Source of the DNA: an uncultured Clostridia bacterium
GTDB taxonomy: Bacteria > Bacillota > Clostridia > Christensenellales > Borkfalkiaceae
Length of the DNA stretch: 64,000 nt
Assembly (NCBI GenBank): GCA_947631195.1
Contig: CANRKK010000001.1
Coordinates: forward strand, 1 to 64,000
Reading direction: 5' to 3'
Shown here: one piece after another, positions 1,526-28,382 of the stretch
Layout of the letters: the number at the start of each line of letters is the position of its first letter
Position numbering within the stretch: the stretch's first letter is position 1
Notes under the pieces: generated by a model
Database searches by the model: none
Seen by the model: the letters and a program-made list of their open reading frames with translations, nothing else
Told to the model about the DNA's origin: nothing
Program-made: the position numbers and the translations under genes

Positions 1526-2251
1526 GTGGCTAAACTTACAAAAAAGCAATATTCCCGCAAGCGGCTGATGGCCGCGGCGCTTATATTCGTGGCGGTGGCG
1601 CTGATTGTGACGGGCGTTGCAATCTGGCTGCTGTTTAACGCCCTCAACGGCACGTTCGGGGGCAATATCGCCGTAGGCGCCGTGGTAGACAGCCCGCTGG
1701 AATTTTCAAGAATAGTTATCGACGGCATAGAGGTGGACCTGAGGTCGCCCGACCACTCGGTTGACTCGGGGTTCAGGTTTGACTCGGCTTCGGGCGATTT
1801 GGACGGCAGGCTTATGTGGAACGGGGAAGACGCCGAAAAGATGTCGGTCCACGTGGACGTGGTTATTGACCACGCAATGTACCTGCAGCAGTTCGAATAC
1901 GAGTTGGAGCTGCCGGAGGGCGTTATCGAGGCCGCGCGCAAGGGCTATCTGGTTATCGACGAGTACTACGACTGGGAAAAGGCCGAGCCCAAGCGCATAG
2001 AGATCCCCGTGGACAGCGGAACGTACTACAAGGAGCAGGACTCCTGGAGGTTGCAGTTTGACCTCTACCTGTACTGGGGGGAGGCGTTCGGCGGGGTAAA
2101 TCCCAGCATCTGGTATGACGACGGCGGGGCGGACGTGCCCTATGACGATATGGTGGACGTGTTAAACGACTTTCACGACATAATCATGGGCGGGTCCAAA
2201 TTCAGCACCCCGACCTTTACGCTCACTCTGATAGCCAGCCCGAAGGTGTGA
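1526..2251 (+). CDS. Membrane-anchored or secreted protein of unknown function, probable SipW-type substrate
   Basis: GTG start with upstream AAGGAA. One hydrophobic N-terminal segment containing GVAIW. Ends 2 bp before the signal peptidase gene. Confidence 0.6.
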   Translation: MAKLTKKQYSRKRLMAAALIFVAVALIVTGVAIWLLFNALNGTFGGNIAVGAVVDSPLEFSRIVIDGIEVDLRSPDHSVDSGFRFDSASGDLDGRLMWNGEDAEKMSVHVDVVIDHAMYLQQFEYELELPEGVIEAARKGYLVIDEYYDWEKAEPKRIEIPVDSGTYYKEQDSWRLQFDLYLYWGEAFGGVNPSIWYDDGGADVPYDDMVDVLNDFHDIIMGGSKFSTPTFTLTLIASPKV

Positions 2252-2252
2252 T

Positions 2253-3272
2253 ATGGAACAACAGGAACTGATTGCAATTATAGTTACGTTTGTAGGCTTG
2301 CTCTGTTTCGGGGCGGTGTTCACCCTTTTGTATTTCGCATACAAAAGGTCCACCACGACGCAGATTGAAACGGGCAAGCGGGACATAGATTTGATAGACG
2401 CGGCCATTAAGGAAAAGGACCCCAAGGTACAGCGCAGGCGAAAGATTTCGGGCATTGTTCGCACTGTGCTATTCGTGCTGTTTTTGGCAATTATAATTCC
2501 CGTTCTGATAATGTCGGTTATAGGCAAGTTTACCGTAAAGCCGATATTCGACAAGGGGATTATAGTGGTTGCCAGCGGCTCCATGAGCGAGCGGAACCCC
2601 GCAAACGGCTATCTGGACGAAAACAACTTAAACGACCAGTTCAACACCTATGACCTTATCGTGATAAAAAAGGTGAACAGCGCGGACGAACTTAAAAAGT
2701 ACGACGTTATCGCCTACCGCAACAACAAGGGCACCACGATTATCCACCGCATAGTGGACGTTATTGAAACGCAGTCGGGCGGCGTGCGGTTTGAAACGCG
2801 TGGCGACAGCAACAACTCCAGCGACAGTTACCGCCCCGACATTTCGGACGTTATCGGCGTGTACACGGGCGGACGGGTTAAAACGGTGGGCATCTTCGTG
2901 ATGTTTTTGCAGTCGGTGCCCGGCATACTTACCGTGGCTTCGCTTATATACTGCCTGATAATGGTGGACAACGTGTCGCGGAAGATAGAAAAGGTTGAAC
3001 AGGCGCGGATAGACAAACTTATGGGCGCGATAGAGGACCTGTCCGACGTAAAGGATCTTAAAGCCGAATATCTGGAAATTATACACTATAAAGGGTTTGA
3101 ATATCATTTCAACGAGAAGGGCTTTATAAAAAAATCCGAGGTTCCGGTGGGGGAGCAGACGCCGGAACCGAACGAGATGCTCAAAACGATTGACGACGGC
3201 GCCACAAAGGTGACCAAGTCGATTATAATAGAAACCAAACAAATTGAAACGAGGAAAAAACATGAAAAGTAA
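2253..3272 (+). CDS. Signal peptidase I, SipW/ER type (Ser-His), with C-terminal cytosolic extension
   Basis: ASGSMS and TIIHRIVDV motifs (His rather than Lys dyad), N-terminal TM segments and a C-terminal TM followed by ~90 charged residues. Confidence 0.85.
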   Translation: MEQQELIAIIVTFVGLLCFGAVFTLLYFAYKRSTTTQIETGKRDIDLIDAAIKEKDPKVQRRRKISGIVRTVLFVLFLAIIIPVLIMSVIGKFTVKPIFDKGIIVVASGSMSERNPANGYLDENNLNDQFNTYDLIVIKKVNSADELKKYDVIAYRNNKGTTIIHRIVDVIETQSGGVRFETRGDSNNSSDSYRPDISDVIGVYTGGRVKTVGIFVMFLQSVPGILTVASLIYCLIMVDNVSRKIEKVEQARIDKLMGAIEDLSDVKDLKAEYLEIIHYKGFEYHFNEKGFIKKSEVPVGEQTPEPNEMLKTIDDGATKVTKSIIIETKQIETRKKHEK

Positions 3273-5085
3273 CAGACAGTATTTTACCCGCAGAAACCTT
3301 ATATTGTTTGCGCTCGTCGCGCTGTTTTCGGTTATGCTGGTGTTTGTTGCGCTTTGCCTTGACGGCAGCGATTCGGCCATACTCAGCAAAAAGAATCCCG
3401 TTGCCCTGATAGGCGCGGCGCTGAAATTCAAACAGATAACTTCGGGCATATACGGATTGGTGTGCGTTGCGCTGGTTGCCATATATCTGGTGCTCGGCAC
3501 CGTGGCAATCGTCTTTGAAAAGAGAATTGCCTATCTCAACGGAGTAAAAACTTCTTCGCTCAAAATGTGGCTTATCTACATAGCCACGGTTGTTGTATGT
3601 CTGGCGCTTTCGCTGGGGCTGGGCCTGCTTATCCAGCCGCAGATCACGCAGGAAAATATACTCAACCACCTTATCTTTTTGGGCGAAAGCCTTTCGGTTG
3701 CTTTGATTTTATATGCGGCGATAGGGCTGCTTATCACCGCCGTAGTTATGCTGGTGGTTAACTTCAAAAAGGTAAATAAGCCCTTTGAATTTTTCTCCGA
3801 CCCCTCGCTGGACGATATTTTAGACGAGGTTGAGGAGGAAAAGCCCGTTTCGGAGAACTTCGACGAGCCGCAGGAGACTGCCGCGGCGGACGGCACGGTT
3901 GCTTCGGGCGCGGGCGGCGCAGGCGGAGCTTCGGGCGCGGGCGGCGGAGTCGGCGGCGTTGGTTATGCCGTGACCGAGCCTGAAGAGCGCGAAAAGGTGT
4001 TCCCCGCCCTGTGCGGCGTGGACGCGCGTTACGAGGGCTTCGAGGCCGACAATCTGCACAGCGATACGGTAAACCTTCAGCAGCTGTGCGAGGGCTTCCG
4101 CAACTATCTTGCCAAGGCGGAACACTTATATTTCGATATCGACACCATAAGGTTGTTTATAAGCGGTTTAAACGCTTCCCACTTCATTCTGCTCGAGGGC
4201 TTGAGCGGCACGGGTAAAAGCTCGTTGCCCCGTTACTTTGCCAAGTACGTAAGCGGCAAGGCCACGTTCGTGCCCGTGCAGGCGACGTGGCGCGACCGTA
4301 CAAACCTCATCGGTTATTTCAACGACTTCAGCAAGACGTACAACGAAACGGACTTTTTGACCGCGCTGTACGAGGCGAATTTTGACGTGGACCGCATAAA
4401 CGTGTTCGTGCTCGACGAGTTGAACATAAGCCGCGTAGAGTACTACTTTGCCGACTTCTTGTCCGTGCTGGAGTATCCCGCTTCCGAGTGGAAGTTGAGG
4501 CTTATGCAGTTGCCCGTTAACTTCTTGCCGCCCGTCAAGCTGGACGAGGGCATCGTGCAGATTCCCGAAAACGCGTATTTCGTGGGCACGGCGAACAAGG
4601 ACGACAGTACTTTCACCATCGCCGACAAGGTTTACGACCGTGCAATTTCCATAGGCTTTGACAACCGCAACGCCGCCTTTGAAGTGGAGGGCGAAGCGGG
4701 CCCGATAGTTTTGGGCGCGTCCGCGCTGCACCACCTGTTTGCCGAGGCGCTGCAGGTTGACGAATACCGCTTTACCGCAGAGGACGCCGAAAAGTTCACC
4801 GCCGTAACGGGCTATATCTACGATACGTTTGATATTGCTTTCGGTAACCGTGTTCTCAACCAGATAGAAACGCTCGTTCCCACCTATATCGCCTGCGGCG
4901 GTACCAAGGAGGAGGCGCTCGACTTTATTTTGGCAAGCAAAGTGCTTGTGAAGTTGGAGGGCCGCTTTGAGGACTACATCAAAGAGGGATTAAAGAAAGT
5001 TTTGGCTATGCTTTCCTCGCAATACGGCGCGGGAACGTTTAAGCGCAGCGAAAAGGCGATAAATAACCTGCTTAAAAAACTTTGA
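3262..5085 (+). CDS. Membrane-anchored McrB-like AAA+ ATPase
   Basis: About four N-terminal TM segments, Gly/Ala-rich linker, Walker A LEGLSGTGKSSL, Walker B NVFVLDELNISRVE, sensor-like FVGTANKDDST. ATG at 3262 with GAGGAAAAAAC SD. Confidence 0.8.
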   Translation: MKSNRQYFTRRNLILFALVALFSVMLVFVALCLDGSDSAILSKKNPVALIGAALKFKQITSGIYGLVCVALVAIYLVLGTVAIVFEKRIAYLNGVKTSSLKMWLIYIATVVVCLALSLGLGLLIQPQITQENILNHLIFLGESLSVALILYAAIGLLITAVVMLVVNFKKVNKPFEFFSDPSLDDILDEVEEEKPVSENFDEPQETAAADGTVASGAGGAGGASGAGGGVGGVGYAVTEPEEREKVFPALCGVDARYEGFEADNLHSDTVNLQQLCEGFRNYLAKAEHLYFDIDTIRLFISGLNASHFILLEGLSGTGKSSLPRYFAKYVSGKATFVPVQATWRDRTNLIGYFNDFSKTYNETDFLTALYEANFDVDRINVFVLDELNISRVEYYFADFLSVLEYPASEWKLRLMQLPVNFLPPVKLDEGIVQIPENAYFVGTANKDDSTFTIADKVYDRAISIGFDNRNAAFEVEGEAGPIVLGASALHHLFAEALQVDEYRFTAEDAEKFTAVTGYIYDTFDIAFGNRVLNQIETLVPTYIACGGTKEEALDFILASKVLVKLEGRFEDYIKEGLKKVLAMLSSQYGAGTFKRSEKAINNLLKKL

Positions 5086-5101
5086 TTTATAATTCAGACA
5101 G

Positions 5102-6400
5102 ATGATACATTGTGCCGAAAAATTACTTAAAGCTACCAATATTGCGTTAGGGGACTACGCGTCCGCCCACAGGGCCAACGCGTCCTTTTGGCGTGATATT
5201 GAAAAACTTAAGCGGCTAAGCCTGCAGAAGCTCAGTTTGCAGAGCGACGCCGAGTTCTTCGACAAAATAAACACTGTTTTGAGCGTTATCACCACGATAA
5301 TCATACATCCCCACATATTGAACGCCCGCCAAACGGTTATCGTCCGCGCCGAGCAGGCGCACGGGCTTACCCCGGAGATGTTTATGGACACCGTCCGCGA
5401 CCAAAAATTGTGGAAAGACAAGCGCGGCCAAATGACGCCCGAAGAGGTGTATTATTTTGAGAACATAGACGAGTTGAAGAATTATGAAAACCGTTTTATC
5501 GTGCACTTGCTCGATAAAATAAACGATCAACTCAACGAATACGGCAAATTTTACGACTATATGCTGGGCAGGCTCAATCAGGGCGGCGTGCTAACGAAGG
5601 ACAATTCCCAGCTTGAAAAGCTGATGAGACGTTTGGACTCGCTCGCAAAAAAGGTTCGCCGCATCAAGGGCACGTATTTTTATAAGGAAGTGTCCAAAGC
5701 CAACACGTCGTTTACCCATATCGAAGCCACAAACGTTTTAAAGCACAACCGCGCATACAATTTTTGTTACCGCTTTTACACCGCGTACATCACGTACAGC
5801 GACGAGCAGGCGGTGGCGTCCGACCTTGCAAATTACTATTTCACCCGCCTGCTTTTGGCGTTGCTTTCCTGCGGCTTCGAGCTGCAGCCCTCTCCCGGGG
5901 AAAAGCATTACGGCGTGATCCGCCCCATGCGCTTCGAATCGCAGGATTTTGCGCTCGGTTTGGAGCCTGCGGGGGAATACGACGGGTTTTGGGTTAACGT
6001 GACCAATAAAAAGCTCGGCGGGGAGCTCGGCTGGCGCAATTTGCTGGTTTTTGACGGCTCGGTGGACTTTGAAACGGTGCAGCGCAATCTTTTAAGCTAT
6101 CCCGCAGGCGCGCATACGGCCGTCGACGCGATAAACGTTTGGGATTCGGCGTACGTTGACGGCGGTGTGAGGCCGCTTGACGCGGGCAGGCTCACCGAAG
6201 TGGCCATTCTCAAAAGGTATATCAAGGACAAAACCAAAACGGTTAAGGGCAGCCCGGGGATATATTCAAAGCATTGCCCCGTGTGCGGCGGCAAGGATAT
6301 AGGGCTTTTGGGCGACAACGAATTCAGCTGCAACAGGTGCGGCTCGGTGTATTCCTTCCAGGAAGATAATATTTGGTTTAAAAAACTTAGAAAAATATGA
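5102..6400 (+). CDS. DUF2357/McrC-like protein with C-terminal zinc ribbon
   Basis: ENRFIVHLLDKI motif typical of DUF2357-family partners of McrB-like ATPases. C-terminal CPVCGG...CNRCGSVYSF. Directly downstream of the AAA+ gene. Confidence 0.6.
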   Translation: MIHCAEKLLKATNIALGDYASAHRANASFWRDIEKLKRLSLQKLSLQSDAEFFDKINTVLSVITTIIIHPHILNARQTVIVRAEQAHGLTPEMFMDTVRDQKLWKDKRGQMTPEEVYYFENIDELKNYENRFIVHLLDKINDQLNEYGKFYDYMLGRLNQGGVLTKDNSQLEKLMRRLDSLAKKVRRIKGTYFYKEVSKANTSFTHIEATNVLKHNRAYNFCYRFYTAYITYSDEQAVASDLANYYFTRLLLALLSCGFELQPSPGEKHYGVIRPMRFESQDFALGLEPAGEYDGFWVNVTNKKLGGELGWRNLLVFDGSVDFETVQRNLLSYPAGAHTAVDAINVWDSAYVDGGVRPLDAGRLTEVAILKRYIKDKTKTVKGSPGIYSKHCPVCGGKDIGLLGDNEFSCNRCGSVYSFQEDNIWFKKLRKI

Positions 6401-7188
6401 GTACTCAAACTTCTAAAACAGCAGATCCGCAGGTTTCTGCGCCTGAAAAAGCGTCCGGCGAGCGCGAAGTTATGATATCCATAAAAAATCTCTGCAAGTC
6501 ATACGGCAAAAAAGAGGTTTTAAAGGGTATCAACCTCGACGTGTACGGCGGCGAACTCTTTGGGTTTATCGGCCGCAACGGTATAGGTAAATCCACGACT
6601 ATCGACTGCATGATAGGCGTAAAGCGGTTTGACAATGGCACGATCTCCATCGGCGGCTACGACATAGTGAAGGAAAGCGTGGAGTGCAAGCGCATTTTCG
6701 GCTACGTTGCCAGCGAGCCCACCTGTTATGATATCATGACGGGTTACGACTATCTTGAATTTGTGTCGAGCGTCTACGGAGTGGGGCAAAAGGAGTTCCG
6801 CACCAACTGCGAATATCTGATGGGCAGGCTGTCCTTCAAGGAAAGCGACTTGCACTTGCCTATATCGGGCTATTCCCACGGCATGAAGCAAAAGCTCTGC
6901 CTTATCGGCAGCTTGCTGCACAGTCCCGACGTCTGGATTTTGGACGAACCCACCGTCGGCCTTGACATAATGGCCGTGGAAGAGCTGAAAAAGATGATGC
7001 GCGAGTACGCCAACCATGGCAAAACGGTTTTTGTAACCTCGCATAACATAGAGCTTGTATCCAAGCTGTGCGACAGGGTTGCAATTGTGAATAAAGGCGT
7101 AGTCTCCGCCGTATATGACCTCAACCAATCGCCGAACTTGCGTCTGCGTTTGGCAAGGTTGTTTATAGAGACTTACGGAAACGAATAA
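6397..7188 (+). CDS. ABC transporter ATP-binding protein
   Basis: Walker A GRNGIGKST, signature SGYSHGMKQ, Walker B VWILDEPTVGLD. ATGA overlap with upstream gene. Confidence 0.92.
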   Translation: MSTQTSKTADPQVSAPEKASGEREVMISIKNLCKSYGKKEVLKGINLDVYGGELFGFIGRNGIGKSTTIDCMIGVKRFDNGTISIGGYDIVKESVECKRIFGYVASEPTCYDIMTGYDYLEFVSSVYGVGQKEFRTNCEYLMGRLSFKESDLHLPISGYSHGMKQKLCLIGSLLHSPDVWILDEPTVGLDIMAVEELKKMMREYANHGKTVFVTSHNIELVSKLCDRVAIVNKGVVSAVYDLNQSPNLRLRLARLFIETYGNE

Positions 7189-8780
7189 TGATCGCATTAT
7201 TGGCTAAGGATTTTAAGCTTGTTTTTGCAAGCGGAAGAGTAGGGAAGTGGCGCATAGTATCCTATGTGCTCAGCGTTATGCTCTTAATAATGTTTGTCGC
7301 AATCGAAACGTTTATCGTGTCGGGCGTTTTGTCGCGCCTTGACGCTTACGTAAACGCGCCCATTGCCTTTTTATCCATAGCCTTGTTTGTCGTCAGCATA
7401 TTGATGATTTTTCTCTGCCTCGTGCAGGCAAAAAAGCTGTTTTTTAACGAGCGCGACACAACCAATCTGTCCAGCATGCCCGTGAGCAACGCGCAGATCA
7501 TCATTTCCAAATTGCTGTTTTTGTTCCTTATGCAATATGTAACGGGTCTGATGTTTACATACCCTATCATCGTGGCCTACAACATTTTGTACGGCGGCGG
7601 AAAGATGATGTATTATTTTGGAGTATTTTATCCCATGCTGGCCTTTCCGTTTGAATGCGGCGTGGCGTTGCTTTTGGTGTATCCCTACAAACTGCTTTCG
7701 GATTTTTTAAAAAAACATTCCCTTGTGCAGTTTATCGTGGCGGCAGTGGTTATCTTCGGGGTATGTTATCTATACAGCGTTATACTGAACCTTTTTGTGT
7801 CGCTGGTAGCAAATAATAACTTTGACGCCATTATAAATACGTCTACCGTAAACGGCATGATTACCGCCAAGCGTTACATGGTTCCCATAAGTTGGCTGGT
7901 GGATTTGTTCTTCAGCGGCAAGATCCGCATGCTCGGCATATATTTGTGCGTGGCGTTGGGAATCTTTTTGCTTGGCTCTACGCTGTGCATACTTACGTTC
8001 AACTACCTGCGGAGCGTGCGTTTTCAGGGGAGACAACGCCCCAGACCTTTAAATTATAAACAGCACACGTTGACCCGCGCCCTGATAAAAAAGGAATTTT
8101 TATTGCTTTTTAAAGACAGCAACAATCTGTTTTCTTTTACCGGTTTGGTGTTGGTTCAGCCATTTTTGGTATATTTAATTATATCTTCTATAAACACAAT
8201 TTTCAAAAGCGGTATTTTTGCATATTATGTGGCCCTGATGCCGAACTTTTTGCCGATAATCGATATGTTGCTGGTAATTTTGGTCAGCCTGATTATCAGT
8301 CAAGGCGCAAACAGTTACATTTCTTCCGAGGGCAAAAATATACGCTTGATAAAACTTTTGCCCGTAAGCGTGTTCAAACAGTTATTTATAAAAGTGGCTT
8401 TGCCGCTTTCGTTTGTGGCGGTATCCGTATTGCTTAGCTACGTCGTGCTGTTTGTATTCGGATGCATAAATTTGTGGACGGCGCTGTTTGGATTGCTAAT
8501 CACATTGCTTATACAAGTTATTTTTAGCGTAATTTCCCTGTATGAGGAATTGCAAATCAGGCAAAACCGCGCGCGCAGTTACTTTTTGTCCTCGACATTT
8601 TCGTACTTGGTGCCCATTTTATACGCGGTAGCGATGATATTGGGGAGCTACTTCGGGCTTAATTTGTACGTTGGGTTTGCCATCGGCGTTGCAATAGTGG
8701 TGGCGAGCGGATTGCCTTGGGTAATAAATTTCCGCAAGCGCATTCTTGCACAGTTTGAGCAGTTGGAGGTAATCAACTGA
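7188..8780 (+). CDS. ABC transporter permease (ABC-2-like, about 10-12 TM)
   Basis: Many hydrophobic segments. Immediately follows the ATPase with 1-bp overlap. Confidence 0.8.
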   Translation: MIALLAKDFKLVFASGRVGKWRIVSYVLSVMLLIMFVAIETFIVSGVLSRLDAYVNAPIAFLSIALFVVSILMIFLCLVQAKKLFFNERDTTNLSSMPVSNAQIIISKLLFLFLMQYVTGLMFTYPIIVAYNILYGGGKMMYYFGVFYPMLAFPFECGVALLLVYPYKLLSDFLKKHSLVQFIVAAVVIFGVCYLYSVILNLFVSLVANNNFDAIINTSTVNGMITAKRYMVPISWLVDLFFSGKIRMLGIYLCVALGIFLLGSTLCILTFNYLRSVRFQGRQRPRPLNYKQHTLTRALIKKEFLLLFKDSNNLFSFTGLVLVQPFLVYLIISSINTIFKSGIFAYYVALMPNFLPIIDMLLVILVSLIISQGANSYISSEGKNIRLIKLLPVSVFKQLFIKVALPLSFVAVSVLLSYVVLFVFGCINLWTALFGLLITLLIQVIFSVISLYEELQIRQNRARSYFLSSTFSYLVPILYAVAMILGSYFGLNLYVGFAIGVAIVVASGLPWVINFRKRILAQFEQLEVIN

Positions 8781-8781
8781 T

Positions 8782-11373
8782 ATGAAAAAGAGAAATCTTG
8801 CTATATTGCTGATTATTCCGTTTTTGGTAGCTATTTTTGGGATTGTAACCATAAATACTGCATTTAATCTTGTCGACAACGATGTCGTCCGCATTGTGTG
8901 GGACTACCGCCAAAACGAGCTGTTTAACTTAAATAATCGCCACTTGCTCCGCGCAAAGGGAATTTTGGCCAACGAATCGGGTTTGGGTTCGGCCGGCAGC
9001 CAATTGGTTTGGACGGTTGCCAATCTCGATCCTGCGGATACGGAGGAACATGCGGTAATCGATAACTCCGACCACATCAACAGCTATCTTGTGCCCCAAT
9101 CCGTGGGCTGGATAACAATTATCTGCACTTCGCAAAAAGGCAATGTTACCCCGTTGAGAATGAACGCTTACATTTTTAGCGGCAACGCGTTTGTAATAAA
9201 TACCTCTACCGACGCATCTTCGCAAAACGTTGACGGCACGCTCTATTACGGCGAATTCGACCGCAACCAACAGACGGGTGAAAAAATAAAAGCGACAATC
9301 GGGTTCGACGTAAATGTTTCTGACAGCGATTTGCGCAACACGATCGTTTGGGATAGGGCAAATTCAACCGATAACGTCACTGTAAGTATGGAAAGCGGCG
9401 AAGGTACTATTTACGTTAACAGCGCGTTGTCCGACGGCAGCGATACGGTGGTTGCCTTTGTCAGCAACTCCGATCCCGAGCTTACGGCAAAGCTGGAGTT
9501 TCAGGTGGTGCCCCAGGGAATCAATGTTTATACTTATGATGATTTGCTTGCATGCACCAATAACTCCGAGCAGGGTGAAATAGTCGTTTTGCGCAAGCAT
9601 TTTGAATCGCTGGCTAATTTTGAAGATAACACCGCGTCCAACGTGGCCCTGTTCGGCACAAGGACGGCAGACGGCTTTAACTTTGCCAATGAAGTATACC
9701 GTTTTGAGACTACGTATAACCACGAATTCATGGACCAATGGAATCAGTGGACGAATACGCCTGACGGCGCGGGAAGAGGCACGGTAAGTTTGGACATTAT
9801 TGCCGGCTTGCATGTGCAAAAAGATTTTTACGGCAACGGGTACAGACTCAATTTGCATAACTTATGCTATCCTTCGCAGCGCAGGGAAACTACCGACAGC
9901 AACGGGAACAGCTACGAAGTGGCAATGTTGGGGCAGTCCGACCTTTTCCGCGGGCCCAAGCCGTTTTATATGCTGGGCGACCCCAACAGCACCTTGCCCT
10001 TGGTTACTGCTTTCGGACAGGACAACGTGGGGGTTTATATCGACGGAGATAACATTAAATTCAATGACGTAAAAGTGTCCAACGGCGATTTTGGGCTTGT
10101 AATGGAAAATCTCAACTATACCGGCACGGTGGTAGAGGTTGCGGGCAATAACAACACCGTATGCAACTGCGTGTTGCAAAACGGAAAGAATGTTCTCCGC
10201 AGTTTCAGCTCGCGTAATTTAATTATCGACAACTGCATATTGAGCACTTCGCGGAACTTCCTTTTGGAGGTCGGCAGCAACGAATATGTGAAAAACGACC
10301 CCGCCGACGTCAAAACCTATAATTTTGAAAAGCTCGACGGCACCTCATACAGCGGCGCGACGGCCGATTATCTCGCACCCGTCACGGATGATACTATCAA
10401 TATGCTCGGTGACCAGACGTTAAGTTTGTTCTTGTCGGGATTTGCAAGTTTAAACGACGTGCTCGAACCGCCCGAAACGCCGCGCTATGACCCGTCGACA
10501 CAAAAACCGCAGATGAAAGCCGCCCTACATTCAATCCAAAACGGTTTAAACCATCAGGACGAGGTGGACAGCTATTTTGACGGCTCAACAACGGTAAACA
10601 ACACTGTTTTTTACCGCAGCGGCATAGCGGCCATCGGCGTAAACAATATGTTCAACGGGCCGTTCCTCTATAACAATTCCCCCTCGTTGATAAGCGGTAT
10701 TTTGGGTTTGATGGGCAACATGCTGGGCGAAGCTATCCCCATGTTCCCCGACAACGTTGCGGGCGCAAGCAGACCCGTAAGCGTAAATTTAACCGGCGAT
10801 ACGATTTTTTATGACTATAAAACGTTGGCAGACTGGGATATCAGCGGCTTGATAGACCAGCATATAGGGGAACTTGTCGCGGGCTTGAATCTCGGCAGTT
10901 TCAACGTAACCATAGACGATATTTTCCCGCTTAAGGAAATCCTCACCAACGTTGCGGGCGGACAGCGCCTTATCTACACCTCGCATGTAATGGATGAAAA
11001 CGGCGATGTCTCCGACGTTGACTATATCAGCATTCCCGTGGCGTACTACGGCGGCGGTTATAACGCCTCGGTTGTGACTTCGGATAGCATAAACCACAAA
11101 GTTCTGTCGCCGACGTACAACGTAGACCTGCTGGATAGCTACCTCAATCTTACAACTACGCTCGACTTGTCCGATCTGGCAAACGGCGGGCTCAGCGGCG
11201 TAATGTCCAATCCGAACTTCGTGCGCTTCATGAAAGAGGTGCTTACAAAAACCGTTACGGCGGTAACAGGCTTCGAGCCGTTCAAATTCCAGTTTGAAAC
11301 TTCTGCGGAGGGCTTGTTTGACGAAAGCGGCAAACCTATAGCCCCCGACTATCAAATATTAATCAAAAACTAA
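8782..11373 (+). CDS. Exported protein with right-handed beta-helix-like repeats
   Basis: N-terminal TM/signal MKKRNLAILLIIPFLVAIFGIVTIN. Repetitive NNNTVCNCVLQNGKNVLRSFSSRNLIIDNCIL pattern. Confidence 0.6.
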   Translation: MKKRNLAILLIIPFLVAIFGIVTINTAFNLVDNDVVRIVWDYRQNELFNLNNRHLLRAKGILANESGLGSAGSQLVWTVANLDPADTEEHAVIDNSDHINSYLVPQSVGWITIICTSQKGNVTPLRMNAYIFSGNAFVINTSTDASSQNVDGTLYYGEFDRNQQTGEKIKATIGFDVNVSDSDLRNTIVWDRANSTDNVTVSMESGEGTIYVNSALSDGSDTVVAFVSNSDPELTAKLEFQVVPQGINVYTYDDLLACTNNSEQGEIVVLRKHFESLANFEDNTASNVALFGTRTADGFNFANEVYRFETTYNHEFMDQWNQWTNTPDGAGRGTVSLDIIAGLHVQKDFYGNGYRLNLHNLCYPSQRRETTDSNGNSYEVAMLGQSDLFRGPKPFYMLGDPNSTLPLVTAFGQDNVGVYIDGDNIKFNDVKVSNGDFGLVMENLNYTGTVVEVAGNNNTVCNCVLQNGKNVLRSFSSRNLIIDNCILSTSRNFLLEVGSNEYVKNDPADVKTYNFEKLDGTSYSGATADYLAPVTDDTINMLGDQTLSLFLSGFASLNDVLEPPETPRYDPSTQKPQMKAALHSIQNGLNHQDEVDSYFDGSTTVNNTVFYRSGIAAIGVNNMFNGPFLYNNSPSLISGILGLMGNMLGEAIPMFPDNVAGASRPVSVNLTGDTIFYDYKTLADWDISGLIDQHIGELVAGLNLGSFNVTIDDIFPLKEILTNVAGGQRLIYTSHVMDENGDVSDVDYISIPVAYYGGGYNASVVTSDSINHKVLSPTYNVDLLDSYLNLTTTLDLSDLANGGLSGVMSNPNFVRFMKEVLTKTVTAVTGFEPFKFQFETSAEGLFDESGKPIAPDYQILIKN

Positions 11374-11395: not shown

Positions 11396-12544
11396 ATGTC
11401 AAAACGTATTGGCAAAGTTTTATGCCTGATATTTTTATCGGTAATACTTGTTTTGGTTTCGGCTTGTTCGTTTTTCGGCGAAGAAGAACGCCGCGAAATA
11501 GAAAATATCTACTACATTGCTGCCACGCAGGACGACGTAGAAGGTATTTTCGTAGTAATCGAATATGCCGGCGACGAGTATCCCGACAGTATGTTCTTCG
11601 TTGCCAACGGTGAAGAAGGTAAGGAGGGCAACGGCATTGCCGAAGTCACGGGCGAACTCATCGAGGACGGCGCAAAAATCCAAATCACCGTAAAATACAC
11701 AGACCAAACGCGCGATCCGTCCGTTTTTGAGTTTAACAACAGCGTTTTCCCCACCGATTGCCAAAGCGAACTCGACCCCGAAACGGGCGACTGGCACATC
11801 ACAATCACCCTTTCCAATGGCGAAATTGTTGAACTTGACGTCCATAACGGCGTTGACGGCGACGAAATCATAGATTTCCGCACCGAGCCCGGCAATCCCG
11901 ACCTCGACGAAGACGAAAATACGACTTATATCGTTATCGTAATGAAAAAGACCGACCCCGAAACGGGCGAAAATATAACTTACCGTATTCCTATGCCCGA
12001 GGGCGACAAGGGCGAACAGGGCGTAGGCATCGCGGGCATACGTGTAGACGACTACCTCACGCGGTATGACGCAAACTTCGTGCATCTCGTTATAGAACTC
12101 ACCGACGGCACCGAACTCAGAACCGAAATTCCCAAGGTAAACAACTGGACGGTAGGGGACGGAGCCCCTTCGCCCGGTTCGGGTATGGTTGGCGATTTCT
12201 ATTTTGACAGAAGAAATTGCATTTTCTACTACAGAAATAACGCCGGCACATGGGAAATAATTATCGACCTCTCCGACAAAACTACCGCCGACCATGTCGT
12301 AAGTTTTATGGTTGACGGAATCATGCTCGATACGCCCATTTATATCAAGCACGGAGATTACTTCTACGGTAAAACGGACAAAAAAATCCCCACGCCCCAA
12401 AAAGATGGCTTTAAGTTTGCGGGCTGGTACACCAAACTCAACGAAGACGGCACCGTAAACGTCAATTCGGGGCAGTTTACCGACCTTACGCCCGTTTTAA
12501 CCGATATGACTTTATACGCCTATTTTATAGCAGAAACCGACTAA
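11396..12544 (+). CDS. Surface lipoprotein with C-terminal InlB/Listeria-Bacteroides-type repeat
   Basis: Lipobox LVSAC. C-terminal FAGWYTKLNEDGTVN...LTDMTLYAYF. Confidence 0.75.
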   Translation: MSKRIGKVLCLIFLSVILVLVSACSFFGEEERREIENIYYIAATQDDVEGIFVVIEYAGDEYPDSMFFVANGEEGKEGNGIAEVTGELIEDGAKIQITVKYTDQTRDPSVFEFNNSVFPTDCQSELDPETGDWHITITLSNGEIVELDVHNGVDGDEIIDFRTEPGNPDLDEDENTTYIVIVMKKTDPETGENITYRIPMPEGDKGEQGVGIAGIRVDDYLTRYDANFVHLVIELTDGTELRTEIPKVNNWTVGDGAPSPGSGMVGDFYFDRRNCIFYYRNNAGTWEIIIDLSDKTTADHVVSFMVDGIMLDTPIYIKHGDYFYGKTDKKIPTPQKDGFKFAGWYTKLNEDGTVNVNSGQFTDLTPVLTDMTLYAYFIAETD

Positions 12545-12593: not shown

Positions 12594-13235
12594 ATGTACA
12601 AGAGAGCAATGACTATTTTAATATCATTCTTGTCTTGCTGCGCAATGATTTGCGTGGGCTTTTCGGCATGGACTTTTAATTTGGGGCAAGATCTACAGGC
12701 AGAGTCAAACGGCGTCATCCAGTCCGAAGATGTTATCGTCAGCGACGACTATGTGACGATTAGTGCTGAGGACATGTCCAATTTTGTATTCACGCCAACA
12801 GGATTTAAAAGCGGTTCAAAAGCTACTTTTAATATTAAATTAAAAGTGTTTGTTGAACAATGTAAAAAATTTGTCGGTGAAAATGATTTAACAGTTTCAA
12901 TAACATTGAGCTTATCAGTGCTTGACGATGTAAATGCTGATTATATTTTTACCAATGATATTATTTCTTTTTCTATGGATGATAGGAATGTGTCTCCCAG
13001 TTCTACACAATCATCTTATACAGCGGAATTTAAAATAACTAATGAAGAATTATCTACTGCTAAGGAGTCGGAGCAGAAAGAACTGGAGTTATCTGGACAA
13101 TTTACATTTACTATAAGTAATACTACTGATTATAACAGATTATATGATGCATTATTTGATGTTAATAATAATGAGCAGAAAAACTCATTTAAACTTGTAG
13201 TGGCGGTATCCAACGAACCGAATGAGGGTAATTAA
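12594..13235 (+). CDS. SipW-dependent-type secreted protein
   Basis: N-terminus MYKRAMTILISFLSCCAMICVGFSAWTF matches the signal motif of 562-1356. SD AAGGAGG upstream. Confidence 0.65.
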   Translation: MYKRAMTILISFLSCCAMICVGFSAWTFNLGQDLQAESNGVIQSEDVIVSDDYVTISAEDMSNFVFTPTGFKSGSKATFNIKLKVFVEQCKKFVGENDLTVSITLSLSVLDDVNADYIFTNDIISFSMDDRNVSPSSTQSSYTAEFKITNEELSTAKESEQKELELSGQFTFTISNTTDYNRLYDALFDVNNNEQKNSFKLVVAVSNEPNEGN

Positions 13236-13237
13236 AT

Positions 13238-16200
13238 ATGACGCGTTTAAGAAAGTATTTAATTATAATATTATCTATGCTGGCGGCCATGCTTTGCGCG
13301 GCCGGCGTTTCCACATGGATTATATCTACGCCCAAAATTATCACGCCCCTGTGGGAAGCAGCGCAACCACAACAACAAAAAGTTTATGTAAAGAAAATTG
13401 TTGAAACCACTCCTGCCGAAACAGTCACGGGCAGCTATCTTTCCAACGCGGCTAATAAGAAATTGGAGTTTAGCTTTGAGGGCGGAGCAGATGCAAGTAG
13501 TGCAATTCAATCTTTTGGTGTAGGTACTGCAAATAGTGGCGGTGCGGTTCCTAATGTGGAGTTTACAAAGGGAGAAGAAATTAAAGTCGGTTGCACATAT
13601 TCTGTGTCTGTTTTGGACATTACTTTTGTTTCTACTTCATACTCTTTAGCGGGAACTTATAAAAATAGAAAGGAAGGCGGTTTAGACGGTATAGAAGAAT
13701 CAAGCAGCATAAATATTATTCTCAAACATAAAACTGTGGACGTCGGCGGCACGCTCTACACCATAGAGGACGCGTTAGCAACGGGCGGCAACGCAACCGT
13801 AAAAGCTGACACTTCATTTGCGGGCAAAGACGTTGCTAACCAAGTCGGTTATACAAGCTCTAACTACACCGTTTCAAGCGGCGAAACATTACTGTTGCCG
13901 TATGACGGAAACGATGGCTTGAATACGACAACGTCCGCGGACACATCTGCGTTCGGGACTAATGCTAAAAAAGTTGAATTGAAAATAGGTGAAGGAATTA
14001 CACTTACAAATAACGGTACTTTAAATATTGGTGGGATAACAACAGGACGGCAAGGCGGTCAATCTGGCTGTACTGCGGGCGACCATGCTCAAATAACGCT
14101 TGGCAAAAACGCCATAATCAATTCATACGGCAATATCAATGCTTATGGTTTCATTGCTGAAGCTGACGATAATAACGGTTCTGAAGTTATCGTGAATACG
14201 GGCACATTGCTTATGCCGTTCATAGTTGTTGAACATAGAGGTGGAACAGCTTTTGCCAATATGGTAAGTAAAGGGGCTTTTCAATATGATAGCAAAAATC
14301 TGAAAACTTCTCCATTTAACCGTTTTTATATGGAAAATGTCCATCCTCAACTGACAGTTTTGAGCGGAGCTATTCTTAAAGGACACGCAAATTTATTTGC
14401 AAATGACCATGACAATACCACCGATATTAATTTAGTTGGAACGAGCGGATATCTCATCAATTTGAGTCAAAACACAAAGTTAGTCGCAAAATATAACGTT
14501 AATGCCAAGATAATGTCCGTTGAAATTAAGGGGAGCGCGACACTGAATGCTCTTGAGTTGTCTTTGACAAACCCTGTATCAATTACGCTTAGTACGAAAA
14601 CGGTACACTTCCCAATCTCGTGGCACTTTAATATAACATTGAGTTCTTATGAAGACGGTAATCCCTCTACCGTTACTGCAACCGAACAAAAACTTAAACT
14701 TTTACCGAGCGCAAAGTTTACCGTGGGGAAAAACGTGACCCTTATAGCAGACGAGTTAGTTGTTTATGATGAAAAAGCAATTGATTTTGTTGATCCAACC
14801 AAGAGTTATGATCCTTCTACAGATAACGTAAAGAAAAATATACCTGCTACCCTCATTATCAATGGAACTTTGCAGGCAAATAAATTAGCGGGTCATGTGC
14901 AAACAGAAATAGACAATGCCCATTTGGTAATATCCAATGGGAATACAATTGCTACTAAAGAGATTACTGCTATCGGCGGAACGACAGGACTGGGTTTGGG
15001 GGATCAATCTAAGTATAAAGATATATCACATACCCTGAATGGCGCAGTGTATAACGACGGAAACATATCCCAACAAAATCTTAACGTGGGAACGTATATC
15101 TCAAAGTTATTTGAGGATATTGGTGTATGGCTGACAAAGGAAATTCCTTCCGTAACCTATCAAGCAGGTGAAGGCTCGTTTGCAAATGGGGAAAAGTCTG
15201 TTACAAAACAATATAGCGACCTTGAGGATTTGCAAGGCGAGACAAAAATTTTAGGTCAAGACAAAATCGATTCGGAGACGCCCACAAGGCCGTACTATGA
15301 ATTCCTCGGTTGGGCAACAAAACAAAGCGGCGCAACAGCAGCCGATGTGATAAAAGACGGCCTCGAAATCACCATCGGCAATGAAATCACACTCTACGCC
15401 GTTTGGAAACCGATTGAATACACTTTCAACTATGATATCCTTGATGGAAGTACGGGTGAACACAAAACGGGCCTCCTTGCGACATGGACTGCAGAAATGG
15501 GGCAACTCACCTTGTCGGGAGTTGAGCTCCCGGTTGACAAACCCGTCGGCTATGAGTTCGACGGCTGGTACAGCAATCCCGAGTGCACGCTGACGGTCGA
15601 CAACATTGACGTAAGCAATGCGGGCAGCGTGTTCAAAGGAGAAACCTCCGTTACAGTTTACGGCAAGCTCGAGCAGGAATTTACTGCTACGATCGTTTAC
15701 GACCTCGGCGATATGAGCGAAGTGCAAGGCTATTCTGAGCTGCAAAATGTGCTTCCCGTCAATACAACGATAGACAGCGGCCTTAGCATTAAAGAGAAAA
15801 TTACAACTTGGGCAGACGGTTGTCCTGTCGATATAAATATTAATCTCGCAAAATACTTCGCCGGGTGGAAGATTAGAACCGCAAACGGTGATGAAGAGAT
15901 CACGGAAGGGACGACGGTATCGGGAGGCCTGTGTACGAGCGACAACGGCAATTGGACATTGACCTTGGTTGCTCAGTGGGCAGACAAAACAAAAGTAATA
16001 TTCAAAGACGATACGGTCGGATTTACAAGTCAAGATTATTACTATAAGCCCGGGCAGACGGTAGAAATCGATTCTTCCGATAATCTTACAATTGTAGCGC
16101 CTGATGGCCAATCAATCGATATTGCAGCCGAAGGTAGCGACAAAGCTGCGACGTCAACAACATTGCATAGTAAGGACTGCGACATAAGTGAAAAAACTTA

Positions 16201-17329
16201 TTACAATGACGGCGGTTGGAGTGGCGCAGGAGAAGTCGGAGAAACGGCGATGACGATCACCGTACAGCGCGCTAATAAGGTTACGTTGAGTGTAACAGTG
16301 AAAGAAAAAGCACAAATAACTTTAAGAGCCGACAATGTGCAAGGATTGCCTGATAAATTGCAACCTAATAAGAATTGGGTGGGTCAGCCGCAAGATACAA
16401 CTAAGGTATACTATTTGAAACCCGGTACGGTGGTTGACTACACTTTCGTTTCGAATGCTGACCCTGGTAACGATAATAATCCTGAATGCACATATAGCGT
16501 TAGTGGAGACTTAAAAGAAGGTGGCTTTGAATATCAAGGAGCCAAAGATGAGAAAAGCGGTAGCTTTACGCTCAAGGAAAGTGAAGGCGGAGAGGTTAAA
16601 ATTAGCGCAACAACCAAAGACGGTACCTGTATCGTCGAGGGTACTCTCATTACAATGGCCGACGGTACGCAAAAACCCGTTGAGGATTTGACGAAAGATG
16701 ACATTGTTTTGACGTTTAACCATACGACCGGGCAGTATGAGCCGAGAGGGTTGAACTTCATTGCTCACCAAGACGATGCTGCTTCCTTGCATCGGATCGT
16801 CAACCTTGTATTCTCCGACGGAACTACGCTACGTATCGTCGCAAGCCATAGTTTGTTCGATTTGACTTTGAGGAAATACGTTTCCATTGAGGAAGGCAAC
16901 ATGACCGAATTCATCGGCCATAGCTTCAACAAAGTTGATGTGCAGGCGGGACAATTCGAAAATCGGGCGGTCACATTGGTTTCTGCCTATATCACAGAAG
17001 AATGTGTGCGGGTATTCAGCCCGACTTCGGAGATGAATATCAATATTGTGGCAGAGGGCTTGCTGACATTGTCGCGTATTCCTTATGGCGCCGAAGAGCT
17101 ATTAAATATGTTCGACTTCGATGAGAATATGAAGTACGATGAAGAAAAGATGAAAGCCGATATAAAAACATATGGCGTGTACACGTATGATGACTTCAAG
17201 GATTACATGACCTATGAGGAATTCATCAATTCGCCTGTACCATATCTCAAGGTGGGAGTCGGAAAGGGCCTCGTCACATTTGAGCAAATCATCAAGCTGT
17301 TGGAATATCAGAAGAAATATACGGAATAA
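13238..17329 (+). CDS. Large surface protein with SipW-type signal, InlB-like repeats and C-terminal Hint domain
   Basis: MTRLRKYLIIILSMLAAMLCAAGVSTWII start. YEFLGWATK...ITLYAVWKP and YEFDGWYSNPEC repeats. CIVEGTLITMADGTQKPVEDLTKDDIVLTFNHTTGQY Hint start. Confidence 0.75.
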   Translation: MTRLRKYLIIILSMLAAMLCAAGVSTWIISTPKIITPLWEAAQPQQQKVYVKKIVETTPAETVTGSYLSNAANKKLEFSFEGGADASSAIQSFGVGTANSGGAVPNVEFTKGEEIKVGCTYSVSVLDITFVSTSYSLAGTYKNRKEGGLDGIEESSSINIILKHKTVDVGGTLYTIEDALATGGNATVKADTSFAGKDVANQVGYTSSNYTVSSGETLLLPYDGNDGLNTTTSADTSAFGTNAKKVELKIGEGITLTNNGTLNIGGITTGRQGGQSGCTAGDHAQITLGKNAIINSYGNINAYGFIAEADDNNGSEVIVNTGTLLMPFIVVEHRGGTAFANMVSKGAFQYDSKNLKTSPFNRFYMENVHPQLTVLSGAILKGHANLFANDHDNTTDINLVGTSGYLINLSQNTKLVAKYNVNAKIMSVEIKGSATLNALELSLTNPVSITLSTKTVHFPISWHFNITLSSYEDGNPSTVTATEQKLKLLPSAKFTVGKNVTLIADELVVYDEKAIDFVDPTKSYDPSTDNVKKNIPATLIINGTLQANKLAGHVQTEIDNAHLVISNGNTIATKEITAIGGTTGLGLGDQSKYKDISHTLNGAVYNDGNISQQNLNVGTYISKLFEDIGVWLTKEIPSVTYQAGEGSFANGEKSVTKQYSDLEDLQGETKILGQDKIDSETPTRPYYEFLGWATKQSGATAADVIKDGLEITIGNEITLYAVWKPIEYTFNYDILDGSTGEHKTGLLATWTAEMGQLTLSGVELPVDKPVGYEFDGWYSNPECTLTVDNIDVSNAGSVFKGETSVTVYGKLEQEFTATIVYDLGDMSEVQGYSELQNVLPVNTTIDSGLSIKEKITTWADGCPVDININLAKYFAGWKIRTANGDEEITEGTTVSGGLCTSDNGNWTLTLVAQWADKTKVIFKDDTVGFTSQDYYYKPGQTVEIDSSDNLTIVAPDGQSIDIAAEGSDKAATSTTLHSKDCDISEKTYYNDGGWSGAGEVGETAMTITVQRANKVTLSVTVKEKAQITLRADNVQGLPDKLQPNKNWVGQPQDTTKVYYLKPGTVVDYTFVSNADPGNDNNPECTYSVSGDLKEGGFEYQGAKDEKSGSFTLKESEGGEVKISATTKDGTCIVEGTLITMADGTQKPVEDLTKDDIVLTFNHTTGQYEPRGLNFIAHQDDAASLHRIVNLVFSDGTTLRIVASHSLFDLTLRKYVSIEEGNMTEFIGHSFNKVDVQAGQFENRAVTLVSAYITEECVRVFSPTSEMNINIVAEGLLTLSRIPYGAEELLNMFDFDENMKYDEEKMKADIKTYGVYTYDDFKDYMTYEEFINSPVPYLKVGVGKGLVTFEQIIKLLEYQKKYTE

Positions 17330-17579: not shown

Positions 17580-18218
17580 ATGGAAAACTATTCTAATGTG
17601 TTTATATTTGACCACCCGCTTATCAAGCACAAAGTTTCTATCCTGCGCGACAAAAACACGGGAATGAAACAGTTTCGCGAGCTGGTGGAGGAGATAACCA
17701 CGGTTATGACGTACGAGAGCATGCGCGACGTTGAGCTCGAGGCGGTGGAGGTGGAGACTCCGCTTGAAAAGACCGTTCAGTGGCGCGTGCCCGAGGAGAG
17801 CGTGGCGATTGTGCCCATTTTGCGCGCGGGGCTGGGCATGGTGAACGGTGTGCACAAGGTTTTCCCCACGGCCCGCGTGGGGCACATAGGAATGTACCGC
17901 GACGAGCAGACTTTGGAACCGCACGAGTATTATTGCAAGCTCCCCGAAGGTATCCGGGACAAAACCGTATTTCTTGTCGACCCGATGCTGGCTACGGGCG
18001 GCTCCGCCTGCGACGCGCTCGCCGCGCTCAAAAAACGCGGTTGCAAACACATTAAATTTATGGCTATAATCGCCGCGCCGGAGGGCGTAGAGGCGGTTGC
18101 AAAGGCTCATCCCGACGTGCGCGTGTATATTTCCACGCTGGACCGCTGCCTGAATTCCAGCGGTTACATTTTGCCGGGGCTCGGTGACGCGGGCGACAGG
18201 CTTTTTGGCACCAAATAA
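17580..18218 (+). CDS. upp: Uracil phosphoribosyltransferase
   Basis: Full-length match to Upp pattern: [39 protein letters not shown]. Confidence 0.95.
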
Positions 18219-18224
18219 CGCAAT

Positions 18225-18250
18225 GCCCCGCCGACGGCGGGGCAAAATTT
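18225..18250 (+). terminator. Rho-independent terminator of upp
   Basis: GCCCCGCC-GAC-GGCGGGGC followed by AAAATTTTT. Confidence 0.6.
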
Positions 18251-18256
18251 TTGCAT

Positions 18257-18285
18257 GAAAAAAGGACGGACAGCGCGTCCGCCCT
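18257..18285 (-). terminator. Rho-independent terminator of rpsT
   Basis: Minus-strand stem AGGGCGGAC-GCGCT-GTCCGTCCT followed by a T run. Confidence 0.6.
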
Positions 18286-18301
18286 CGATTTTTTGTTTAC
18301 A

Positions 18302-18565
18302 CTACGCCATAGCGTTGAGTTTTTTTGCCAAACCGGATTTTTTGTTGGCTGCCGTATTCTTTTTTATAACGCCCTTAGTAACTGCGCCGTCGATAACGGA
18401 GCAGGTGTGGGGGAAGAGCGCTGTAGCTGCGGCCTTGTCACCGCTTTCGATTGCAGCGAGAAGTTTTTTGACCTCGGTCCTCATTTCGGACTTGAGGGCT
18501 TTATTTCTCTCTGTTTTTTTGTCGGTTACAAGTACGCGCTTTTTAGCAGACTTTATATTAGGCAT
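18302..18565 (-). CDS. rpsT: 30S ribosomal protein S20
   Basis: MPNIKSAKKRVLVTDKKTERNKALKSEMRTEVKKL. Confidence 0.95.
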   Translation of the reverse strand: MPNIKSAKKRVLVTDKKTERNKALKSEMRTEVKKLLAAIESGDKAAATALFPHTCSVIDGAVTKGVIKKNTAANKKSGLAKKLNAMA

Positions 18566-18705
18566 CAGATTTCTCCTTTAAATACCGTATTCACTGAATT
18601 CTTGAGTAATTTTATCATAAAAAACACTTATTGTAAACTGTTTTTAATCGGCTTTTGATAATTTTTTTAATATATTTTGCCTTTACATAATATTAATAAT
18701 AATGT

Positions 18706-19446
18706 ATGTTAAAAGATCGCGCCGCAAACACGCTTGTTTGCTTTTTTGACAGCGGTATAGGGGGGCTCAACCTGATGTACCGCTTTTATAAGCGCCGCCC
18801 CGGCTGCAATTTGGCCTACTTTGCAGATAACTACAACATTCCGTACGGCAACCGCGCCGAAAGCGATGTTCTCGGGCGGGTCGACCAAATCTTTGAAAAA
18901 ATCGCGCTCCTCAACCCGTCCGCGGCGGTAGTGGCCTGCAACACCGTCACTGCGCTGTGTATCGGGTTTTTGAGGCGCAAATACGACTTTCCTATAATAG
19001 GAATACAGCCTGCTGTCAAGCCCGCCGTAAAGGCCGCAAAGCGCTGTTTGCTGCTCGCCACGCCCGCCACGGTAAACAGCGTGGCGGTAAGGGAACTTAT
19101 TAAGCGCTACGGCAACGGCAGGGTTGTTCCCGCGCCCTGCCCCGACCTTGCCGCCTACGTTGAAAACAATATATTCGAGATTTGCGCGGAGGAAGTTGAG
19201 GCGTTGCTGCCACCGGCCGAATGTGACGGCGTGGTTTTGGGCTGCACACACTACAGTTTTGTGTCGGACATAATTTCTGCGCACTATAATTGCGAGGTCT
19301 ACGACGGGGCGGAGGGGACGGTCAATCAGATTTGCAAAATTTTAGGGATTTCTGACCACCAAGGTTTTTGCCCCCAAGAAGTGGCATTTTATGGCGGAAA
19401 TTGCCTGAAAAACGCCAATATATTCAATATTTTAAAAAACAGTTGA
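18706..19446 (+). CDS. murI: Glutamate racemase
   Basis: FFDSGIGGLNLM, ACNTVTAL, VLGCTHYSFV. Confidence 0.93.
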   Translation: MLKDRAANTLVCFFDSGIGGLNLMYRFYKRRPGCNLAYFADNYNIPYGNRAESDVLGRVDQIFEKIALLNPSAAVVACNTVTALCIGFLRRKYDFPIIGIQPAVKPAVKAAKRCLLLATPATVNSVAVRELIKRYGNGRVVPAPCPDLAAYVENNIFEICAEEVEALLPPAECDGVVLGCTHYSFVSDIISAHYNCEVYDGAEGTVNQICKILGISDHQGFCPQEVAFYGGNCLKNANIFNILKNS

Positions 19447-19462
19447 CCGCATCTTTTGTCCG

Positions 19463-19549
19463 ATGGTGGGTCGAAGTGGTTGTTTGTCCCAAAAATTACA
19501 AACTTTTTATTGAAAAGTGGTTGACAGTGGTCAAATATGGTGCTATACT
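19463..19549 (+). promoter_or_regulatory. mraZ promoter with tandem MraZ-box-like repeats
   Basis: TTGACA (19521-19526), 17-nt spacer, TATACT (19544-19549). 7-mers ATGGTGG/GAAGTGG and AAAGTGG/ACAGTGG repeat at 10-bp period. Confidence 0.6.
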
Positions 19550-19578
19550 TTTATTACAGTTTGTAGTTGGTGAAATAG

Positions 19579-20052: not shown

Positions 20053-20055
20053 AAC

Positions 20056-20997: not shown

Positions 20998-21014
20998 TGC
21001 GATAAGGAGAAAAT

Positions 21015-21731: not shown

Positions 21732-21741
21732 GGAGAATATC

Positions 21742-23487: not shown

Positions 23488-23498
23488 CAGGTGGGTTT

Positions 23499-25883: not shown

Positions 25884-25889
25884 GGTAAA

Positions 25890-28326: not shown

Positions 28327-28382
28327 CAAGGCGAAAGCTGTCCGCCATATAATAAAGTATATTTTACTATTCGGAGTCAATA

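Follow-up and report, generated by a model that had tools for sequence, protein, structure and literature searches.

Gene content of the locus

The locus lies in a 64,000-nucleotide stretch of DNA (hereafter, the window) from an uncultured Clostridia bacterium, and all genes described below are on the forward strand. Seven predicted open reading frames (ORFs) are tightly packed at 1526-11373, with successive intergenic distances of +1, -8, +16, -4, -1, and +1 bp. These genes encode an anchored substrate, a SipW-type signal peptidase, a McrB-like AAA+ NTPase with four transmembrane (TM) segments, a DUF2357/zinc-ribbon protein, an ABC transporter ATPase, a permease, and a large exported protein. 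All seven genes of the original prediction are present with the close packing claimed (-8 to +16 bp), but the unit extends beyond these limits: a TasA-like gene upstream (562-1356) and a lipoprotein gene (11396-12544) and surface genes (12594-17329) downstream also belong to it.

The product of 2253-3272 is a SipW-type (Ser-His, ER/archaeal-type) signal peptidase, as had been predicted, and is the only one in the genome. It matches NF046067 (E = 5.8e-19) and, above cut-off, TIGR02228 (59.3 bits), and contains Ser in SGSMS (108-112), His in HRI (165), and RGDSN (183). Its partner, the anchored exported substrate Sub1 (1526-2251), has a TM segment at residues 19-37 and the motif TGVAIW. The AlphaFold2 (AF2) model of Sub1 (pLDDT 83) consists of a single N-terminal helix and a beta-rich domain; a Foldseek comparison with the PDB found no significant fold match, and no TasA structure was among the matches listed. 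The first gene of the extended unit (562-1356) encodes a TasA-like substrate with a SipW-type signal (...VGTGFASWVIL), and a profile search indicated that it is paralogous to Sub1. A genome search with the SipW signal profile TIGR04088 found nothing above cut-off (best 12.6 bits vs. 19); a looser FAxW-type pattern behind a hydrophobic run is present.

The ABC transporter ATPase (6397-7188; PF00005 and TIGR01188) belongs to the DrrA-like exporter class, and the permease (7188-8780), which belongs to no known family, has approximately 11 hydrophobic segments. Surf (8782-11373) is a large exported protein with an N-terminal hydrophobic segment and no known family; its earlier description as beta-helix-like is not backed by any family match. 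The lipoprotein-like surface protein (11396-12544) has a hydrophobic signal followed by Cys and a List_Bact_rpt match (PF09479, 5.3e-8). Further downstream are a second substrate with a SipW-type signal (12594-13235; VGFSAW), which is a variable accessory, and a giant surface protein (13238-17329) with a SipW-type-like signal and List_Bact_rpt, which is accessory cargo.

The McrB-like NTPase and its DUF2357 partner

The gene at 3262-5085, for which ATG at 3262 is most likely the start codon, encodes a membrane-anchored McrB-like AAA+ NTPase with about four predicted N-terminal TM segments, a Gly-rich linker, and AAA+ motifs. These motifs (Walker A, GLSGTGKS; Walker B, VLDELN; TANKDDST; and DKVYDR) are invariant in 13 homologs, and predicted TM segments lie upstream of the AAA+ domain in 77/77 homologs. 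The closest PDB relatives in a phmmer search were structures of Escherichia coli McrB, namely, 6hz4 (E = 1.5e-4) and 6ut6, such that the predicted TM-anchored McrB-like ATPase was borne out. Its McrC-like partner (5102-6400) consists of DUF2357, a weakly conserved middle domain, and a Cys4 zinc ribbon that is kept across the alignment of homologs. In the AF2 model (pLDDT 78), the DUF2357 region contains helices at 128-160 and 168-189. In a Foldseek search with this model, McrC was listed but non-significant (6hz4_M, E = 0.34; 6ut6_G, E = 0.61). Among the families anticipated for this pair, DUF2357 was recovered above cut-off (PF09823, 31.8 bits), AAA_5 was sub-threshold, and PD-(D/E)xK had no match. 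Pfam scans of 29 DUF2357 proteins matched no nuclease family, and no catalytic residues are conserved in the middle domain in the homolog alignment. The modeled middle domain may represent an inactivated nuclease fold.

The pair resembles E. coli McrBC in having an AAA+ domain (6hz4/6ut6) and a DUF2357 partner encoded by adjacent genes. In contrast, the AAA+ protein has TM segments in place of the DNA-binding N-terminal domain, and the DUF2357 protein lacks a recognizable PD-(D/E)xK nuclease. This kinship leaves room for a role in envelope defense, in which a membrane-anchored McrBC/CoCoNuT-like NTPase would sense phage entry or foreign RNA and act through envelope genes. The PADLOC candidate PDC-M26A does match the AAA+ domain (E = 6e-40), but the match spans only about 135 of the 724 profile positions (residues 270-405 to profile 298-432). 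It was rejected as evidence of defense membership because it is a domain-only match, and the identical match occurs in all clades tested. A PADLOC scan of ten flanking genes in the window found nothing; most of the flanking genes that could be assigned belong to the mra/mur cell-wall group. These results, together with the 29 DUF2357 proteins without a nuclease family, argue against defense.

Conservation and diversity of the gene neighborhood

The gene order SipW, AAA+, DUF2357, ABC, Surf, and lipoprotein is kept in 16/16 loci of the AAA+ clade that includes the window (class A; tree support 96/87) wherever the contig reaches. The linkage of SipW, TM-McrB, DUF2357, and ABC genes that was sought in this survey is conserved at these loci as far as the contigs extend. 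In one extra clade member (L054), the ABC and Surf genes are missing. SipW adjoins AAA+ in every informative class A locus, most of which keep the SipW motifs; Sub1 orthologs are immediately upstream of SipW, with one or two TasA-like genes upstream of SipW, and the permease, Surf, and the lipoprotein gene after Surf are likewise conserved. The order persists down to approximately 40% AAA+ identity among metagenome-assembled genomes (MAGs) labeled Clostridia, Bacilli, and Acholeplasmatales. Pairwise distances are correlated between AAA+ and the ABC permease (r = 0.97), AAA+ and DUF2357 (r = 0.95), and SipW and Surf (r = 0.91), although shared ancestry alone also gives high r.

Neighborhood class tracks the AAA+ tree with six label changes, which is the fewest possible. 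Class A neighborhoods have SipW/TasA-like substrates and ABC genes, and class B neighborhoods have two SipW genes and TFAWF substrates, with SipW present wherever the contig allows. By hydropathy, the region N-terminal to the AAA+ domain has 3-5 (mostly four) hydrophobic segments in class A and 1-2 in class B. SipW-type signals were found in 41/212 ORFs in class A, 28/203 in class B, 0/46 in class C, and 6/161 in class E and others. At two loci, representing two families, the pair lies in type IV pilus operons directly behind PilB. In other clades, the pair is found beside giant surface proteins, and tandem copies adjoin transglutaminase/AgI-II surface proteins. The five loci of class E have no clear surface partner or common theme. 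A phylum-wide search for further close relatives found none and returned only weak McrB-like matches (~145 bits). GH3-type proteins (1064-1171 aa) and the unrelated ORFs L080 and L081 were rejected as AAA+ homologs (signature absent; iterated-profile drift) and are left out of the final AAA+ tree.

Scattering of the pair without SipW/ABC neighbors, which had been named as evidence against a surface-secretion role, was observed in part outside the window clade, but several of these clades have pilus or giant-surface-protein neighbors. Such occurrences without SipW could suggest that the linkage is due to chance or is purely transcriptional, with no functional connection. This explanation is extremely improbable given the conserved order within the clade, its persistence across distantly related MAGs, and the match between neighborhood classes and the tree. 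In particular, the linkage at 1526-11373 is not attributable to chance because it is seen in 16 loci and the 2.3-Mb genome has a single copy of each of the SipW, AAA+, and DUF2357 genes. The distribution of the pair is patchy (113/396 genomes of the order), a pattern that would suit defense, but the genes that constantly accompany it encode leader peptidases together with substrates of these enzymes, replaced in one subclade by type IV pilus genes.

The closest published description is that of CoCoPALM, for which Bell et al. (2024; PMC11090510) mention TM-McrB/McrC pairs with signal peptidases in a few sentences, placed near type IV restriction, a placement that would also favor defense. In that account, an NxD-type NTPase is fused to a single FtsB-like TM and a coiled coil, and coiled coils are usually fused to the McrC homolog as well; the text found does not describe a setting with ABC, TasA-like, or type IV pilus genes (PMC11090510). 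Shared features are the membrane-anchored McrB-like NTPase, the McrC homolog, and the adjacent gene of a signal-peptidase family. The NxD motif is present as TANKDDST in the window and as TAN-x-DDST in most homologs, although it is also readable as NxxD and the distinction is not sharp. As far as this brief account goes, it fits class B (e.g., L012 and L063), whereas the window clade has approximately four TM segments rather than one FtsB-like TM with a coiled coil, one SipW rather than two, and an ABC exporter, Surf, and a lipoprotein in addition. The window system is a variation on this barely described kind, and we count it as a separate variant because of its four TM segments, ABC exporter, and surface protein.

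Proposed function in the cell envelope

We consider that the genes at 1526-11373 and their extensions probably constitute a cell-envelope export/assembly system. Based on family knowledge, the TasA-like substrates (562-1356, Sub1, and 12594-13235) would reach the membrane via Sec and be cleaved by SipW. By analogy with McrBC structures, the 4-TM McrB-like NTPase may form a ring on the cytoplasmic face of the membrane, in which the DUF2357 protein would act as the McrC-like stimulating or coupling subunit. We infer that NTP hydrolysis by this ring would assemble, gate, or remodel a membrane complex that builds or releases a surface polymer; the object moved and a filament as the product are likewise conjectural. 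The co-inherited ABC exporter, Surf, and lipoprotein would form the rest of the display machinery.

The evidence favors surface assembly over defense because the constant partners are leader peptidases, substrates, an ABC exporter, and surface proteins, and no nuclease family is matched. Of the two options originally proposed, the export/assembly machine with a co-opted McrBC-like motor is supported by these partner genes and the lack of a nuclease match, with the motor step itself being presumptive, whereas an envelope-located defense system is disfavored and, in our assessment, quite unlikely. Counting against the assembly model are Sub1 without a TasA match, TIGR04088 below cut-off, the class E loci, and L054.

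The SipW-type peptidase beside FAxW-type hydrophobic-signal substrates resembles Bacillus subtilis tapA-sipW-tasA and Clostridium perfringens sipW-bsaA; unlike the window locus, these operons contain neither an AAA+/DUF2357 pair nor an ABC exporter. To our knowledge, no cytoplasmic NTPase is required for assembly in the known SipW systems. Recombinant BsaA polymerizes in E. coli without operon partners (PMC7395162), which counts against the need for an NTPase in SipW assembly. In the archaeal secretion system predicted by Makarova et al. (2015; PMC5898192), which includes arCOG01314 and a MoxR AAA+, an AAA+ ATPase is similarly combined with a GldG/ABC-like component and surface proteins, but this system involves MoxR/vWA rather than McrB/McrC, with SipW unmentioned. 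The pair may alternatively act in maturation or quality control, as a MoxR-type chaperone that assembles or turns over SipW, the ABC permease, or other envelope complexes. MoxR AAA+ proteins serve as maturation chaperones (PMC9976466, PMC3893208), and one is predicted to lie next to a GldG/ABC-like component at secretion loci of archaea (PMC5898192); one pair serving several secretion types (SipW, type IV pilus, and giant adhesins) would also suit a chaperone. We regard this role as rather unlikely, as the nearest relative of known structure is McrB, whose partner is of the McrC type, and not MoxR/VWA, and as co-inheritance and a linkage specific to each class point to a dedicated component.

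The preferred reading, an export/assembly system, suggests that a motor family has been repurposed from defense to cell-surface assembly in a gut bacterium. More tentatively, membrane-anchored McrB/DUF2357 pairs could be a general restriction-derived, NTP-driven module of Gram-positive surfaces that moves or assembles proteins rather than nucleic acid and is interchangeable among SipW/TasA-type, type IV pilus, and giant-adhesin systems. By default, relatives of McrBC are classed as defense genes. If the proposed function is true, defense counts would have to be corrected for a large membrane-bound branch that lacks a recognizable nuclease and is found alongside leader peptidases, adhesins, and type IV pilus genes, and SipW/TasA-type surface systems, for which none is known so far, would gain a cytoplasmic energy source.

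Gene content and extent of the operon

All seven genes of the operon in the original prediction (1526-11373) were found in place and packed as described. Family searches supported the signal peptidase SipW (2253-3272), the ABC ATPase, and the McrC-like DUF2357 protein (5102-6400), which has a Cys4 zinc ribbon at its C-terminus. No family was matched in these searches for the ABC permease, the anchored substrate Sub1 (1526-2251), or the 863-aa exported protein Surf (8782-11373), and the "beta-helix-like" label of the latter is unconfirmed. The predicted model of Sub1 has a beta-rich domain on a single N-terminal helix and gave no significant structural match. The gene for the McrB-like AAA+ protein (3262-5085) most likely starts at ATG 3262, rather than at an upstream TTG. 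Its identity is supported by similarity to E. coli McrB structures and by motifs (Walker A at protein position 312, Walker B at 381, TANKDDST at 442-449, and DKVYDR at 454). The AAA+, SipW, and DUF2357 genes each occur at one site in this 2.34-Mb genome, so this operon contains its sole SipW-type peptidase gene.

The unit exceeds seven genes, with a TasA-like gene (562-1356) upstream and a lipoprotein gene followed by two more surface genes downstream, to 17329. A giant surface protein with List_Bact_rpt is encoded at 13238-17329 and at L007:1822-6798; its C-terminal segment (CIVEGTLITMADGTQKPVEDL...) resembles Hint/intein by eye, and Hint was not matched there in Pfam. A mraZ-mraW-PBP-mur cell-wall cluster starts ~2 kb beyond the unit; the region 17580-29636 contains mraZ, mraW, PBP, Mur ligases, and mraY. 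The DNA between operon and cluster encodes a uracil phosphoribosyltransferase and a member of the Asp/Glu racemase family.

Conservation and neighborhood classes

A scan of genome contigs found 12 AAA+ relatives. Ten have SipW, AAA+, and DUF2357 in that order, followed by ABC ATPase, ABC permease, Surf, and lipoprotein wherever the contig reaches. This order persists to 40% AAA+ identity, including MAGs labeled Bacilli and Acholeplasmatales. In the survey of the order, 113 of 396 genomes have AAA+ relatives; additional samples came from the class and the phylum.

Neighborhood classes were drawn from 40 regions and later additions. Class A, the window's type (16 distinct loci), has TasA-like genes, SipW, AAA+ with ~4 predicted TM, DUF2357, ABC, Surf, and lipoprotein. 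All informative loci are positive (SipW 15/15, ABC 15/15, Surf 14/14, and lipoprotein 13/13), these counts being reduced because L006, L008, L050, and L051 end at contig edges. We consider this gene set, order, and linkage established, as are the membrane anchors, as predicted by hydropathy. In class B (33 AAA+ rows), the N-terminus has 1-2 TM and a coiled-coil-like stretch; the flanks usually have two SipW genes and often TFAWF-type substrates. SipW is present in 32 rows, and the remaining one (L149) is cut at a contig end. Genes that resemble those of EAL/GGDEF signaling proteins by sequence (cluster c9) are often near such loci (L063, L067, and L082). Class C has DUF2357 with AAA+ on either side and lacks SipW. 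At four class C loci (L074, L075, L076, and L083), the two AAA+ domains of a locus match each other completely or almost completely, whereas those of separate loci differ, a pattern resembling that of concerted evolution or gene conversion. Class D AAA+ proteins carry 11-12 TM; in L078:36-2882 and L079:8952-11927 (~950-990 aa), these are predicted ahead of the AAA+ domain and make up a third type of anchor. The pair occurs at five class E loci with inconsistent partners and at two T4P-type loci of different families.

In the AAA+ domain tree of 77 proteins, class A forms a single clade (support 96/87) with L054, which lacks ABC and Surf. Its sister is E + T4P (83/83), and together they form a 4-TM clade (100/99). 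Class B is also a single clade (92/83). The classes require six changes on this tree, the minimum, a fit slightly favored because the late additions L141, L142, L148, and L149 were labeled by clade expectation and L087 and L097 were relabeled once SipW turned up in their wider regions (L143 and L144). Pairwise distances within class A correlate strongly with those of AAA+ (ABC permease 0.97, DUF2357 0.95, and Surf 0.93), as expected for joint inheritance; part of each correlation comes from shared species ancestry.

Evidence on restriction and defense

A defense role appears improbable. PADLOC reports PDC-M26A, but the match is confined to the AAA+ core and was seen in all clades tested, and ten flanking window genes had no PADLOC matches. 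None of 29 DUF2357 proteins had a supported nuclease family match (an Eco47II match in one protein, E 0.05, was noise), and the alignment revealed no conserved catalytic residues in the middle domain; a recognizable nuclease is lacking. An inactivated PD-(D/E)xK fold is possible: the strand/helix order in the AF2 model of the DUF2357 protein suits it, but a Foldseek match between this model and McrC was not significant. Predicted TM segments also precede the AAA+ domain in 77/77 homologs.

Surface-protein linkage and known systems

SipW-type signals, identified by a loose pattern made for this analysis, were found in 41/212 ORFs at class A loci, 28/203 at class B, 0/46 at class C, and 6/161 at E, T4P, D, and two discarded loci. 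The curated TIGR04088 model had no match above its cut-off in the window's own genome. Surface proteins of the transglutaminase and AgI/II-C2 types occur at class C loci, together with GH3 enzymes. Downstream of one class D locus lies a gene for an 1881-aa protein, whose Big_3_5 match is below threshold. At L057 and L059, the pair follows genes for a pilin-like protein, prepilin peptidase, PilC, and PilB (T2SSE E 1e-129, T2SSF E 5e-59, N_methyl and A24 domains). In these type IV pilus operons (L057:188-9814 and L059:8023-17384), the only two cases found, the pair is directly 3' of pilB.

To our knowledge, known SipW systems are without such an NTPase. BsaA polymerizes without helpers (PMC7395162). 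Class B fits CoCoPALM, the TM-McrB/McrC pairs with signal peptidases (Bell et al., 2024; PMC11090510). In our literature search, the name was not found elsewhere in relevant literature, and McrBC and SipW co-occurred in a single, unrelated paper, with one mention each. The window's clade shares the CoCoPALM core; however, we regard it as a distinct variant because its membrane domain differs and ABC, Surf, and lipoprotein are added.

In the known families, SipW cleaves hydrophobic-signal substrates, and DUF2357 of McrC stimulates an McrB ring. Chaperone-like maturation would be one role for the system, though a rather unlikely one. Our preferred reading is that the system probably serves surface assembly or export, in which a membrane-bound ring would power the assembly or export of surface proteins.
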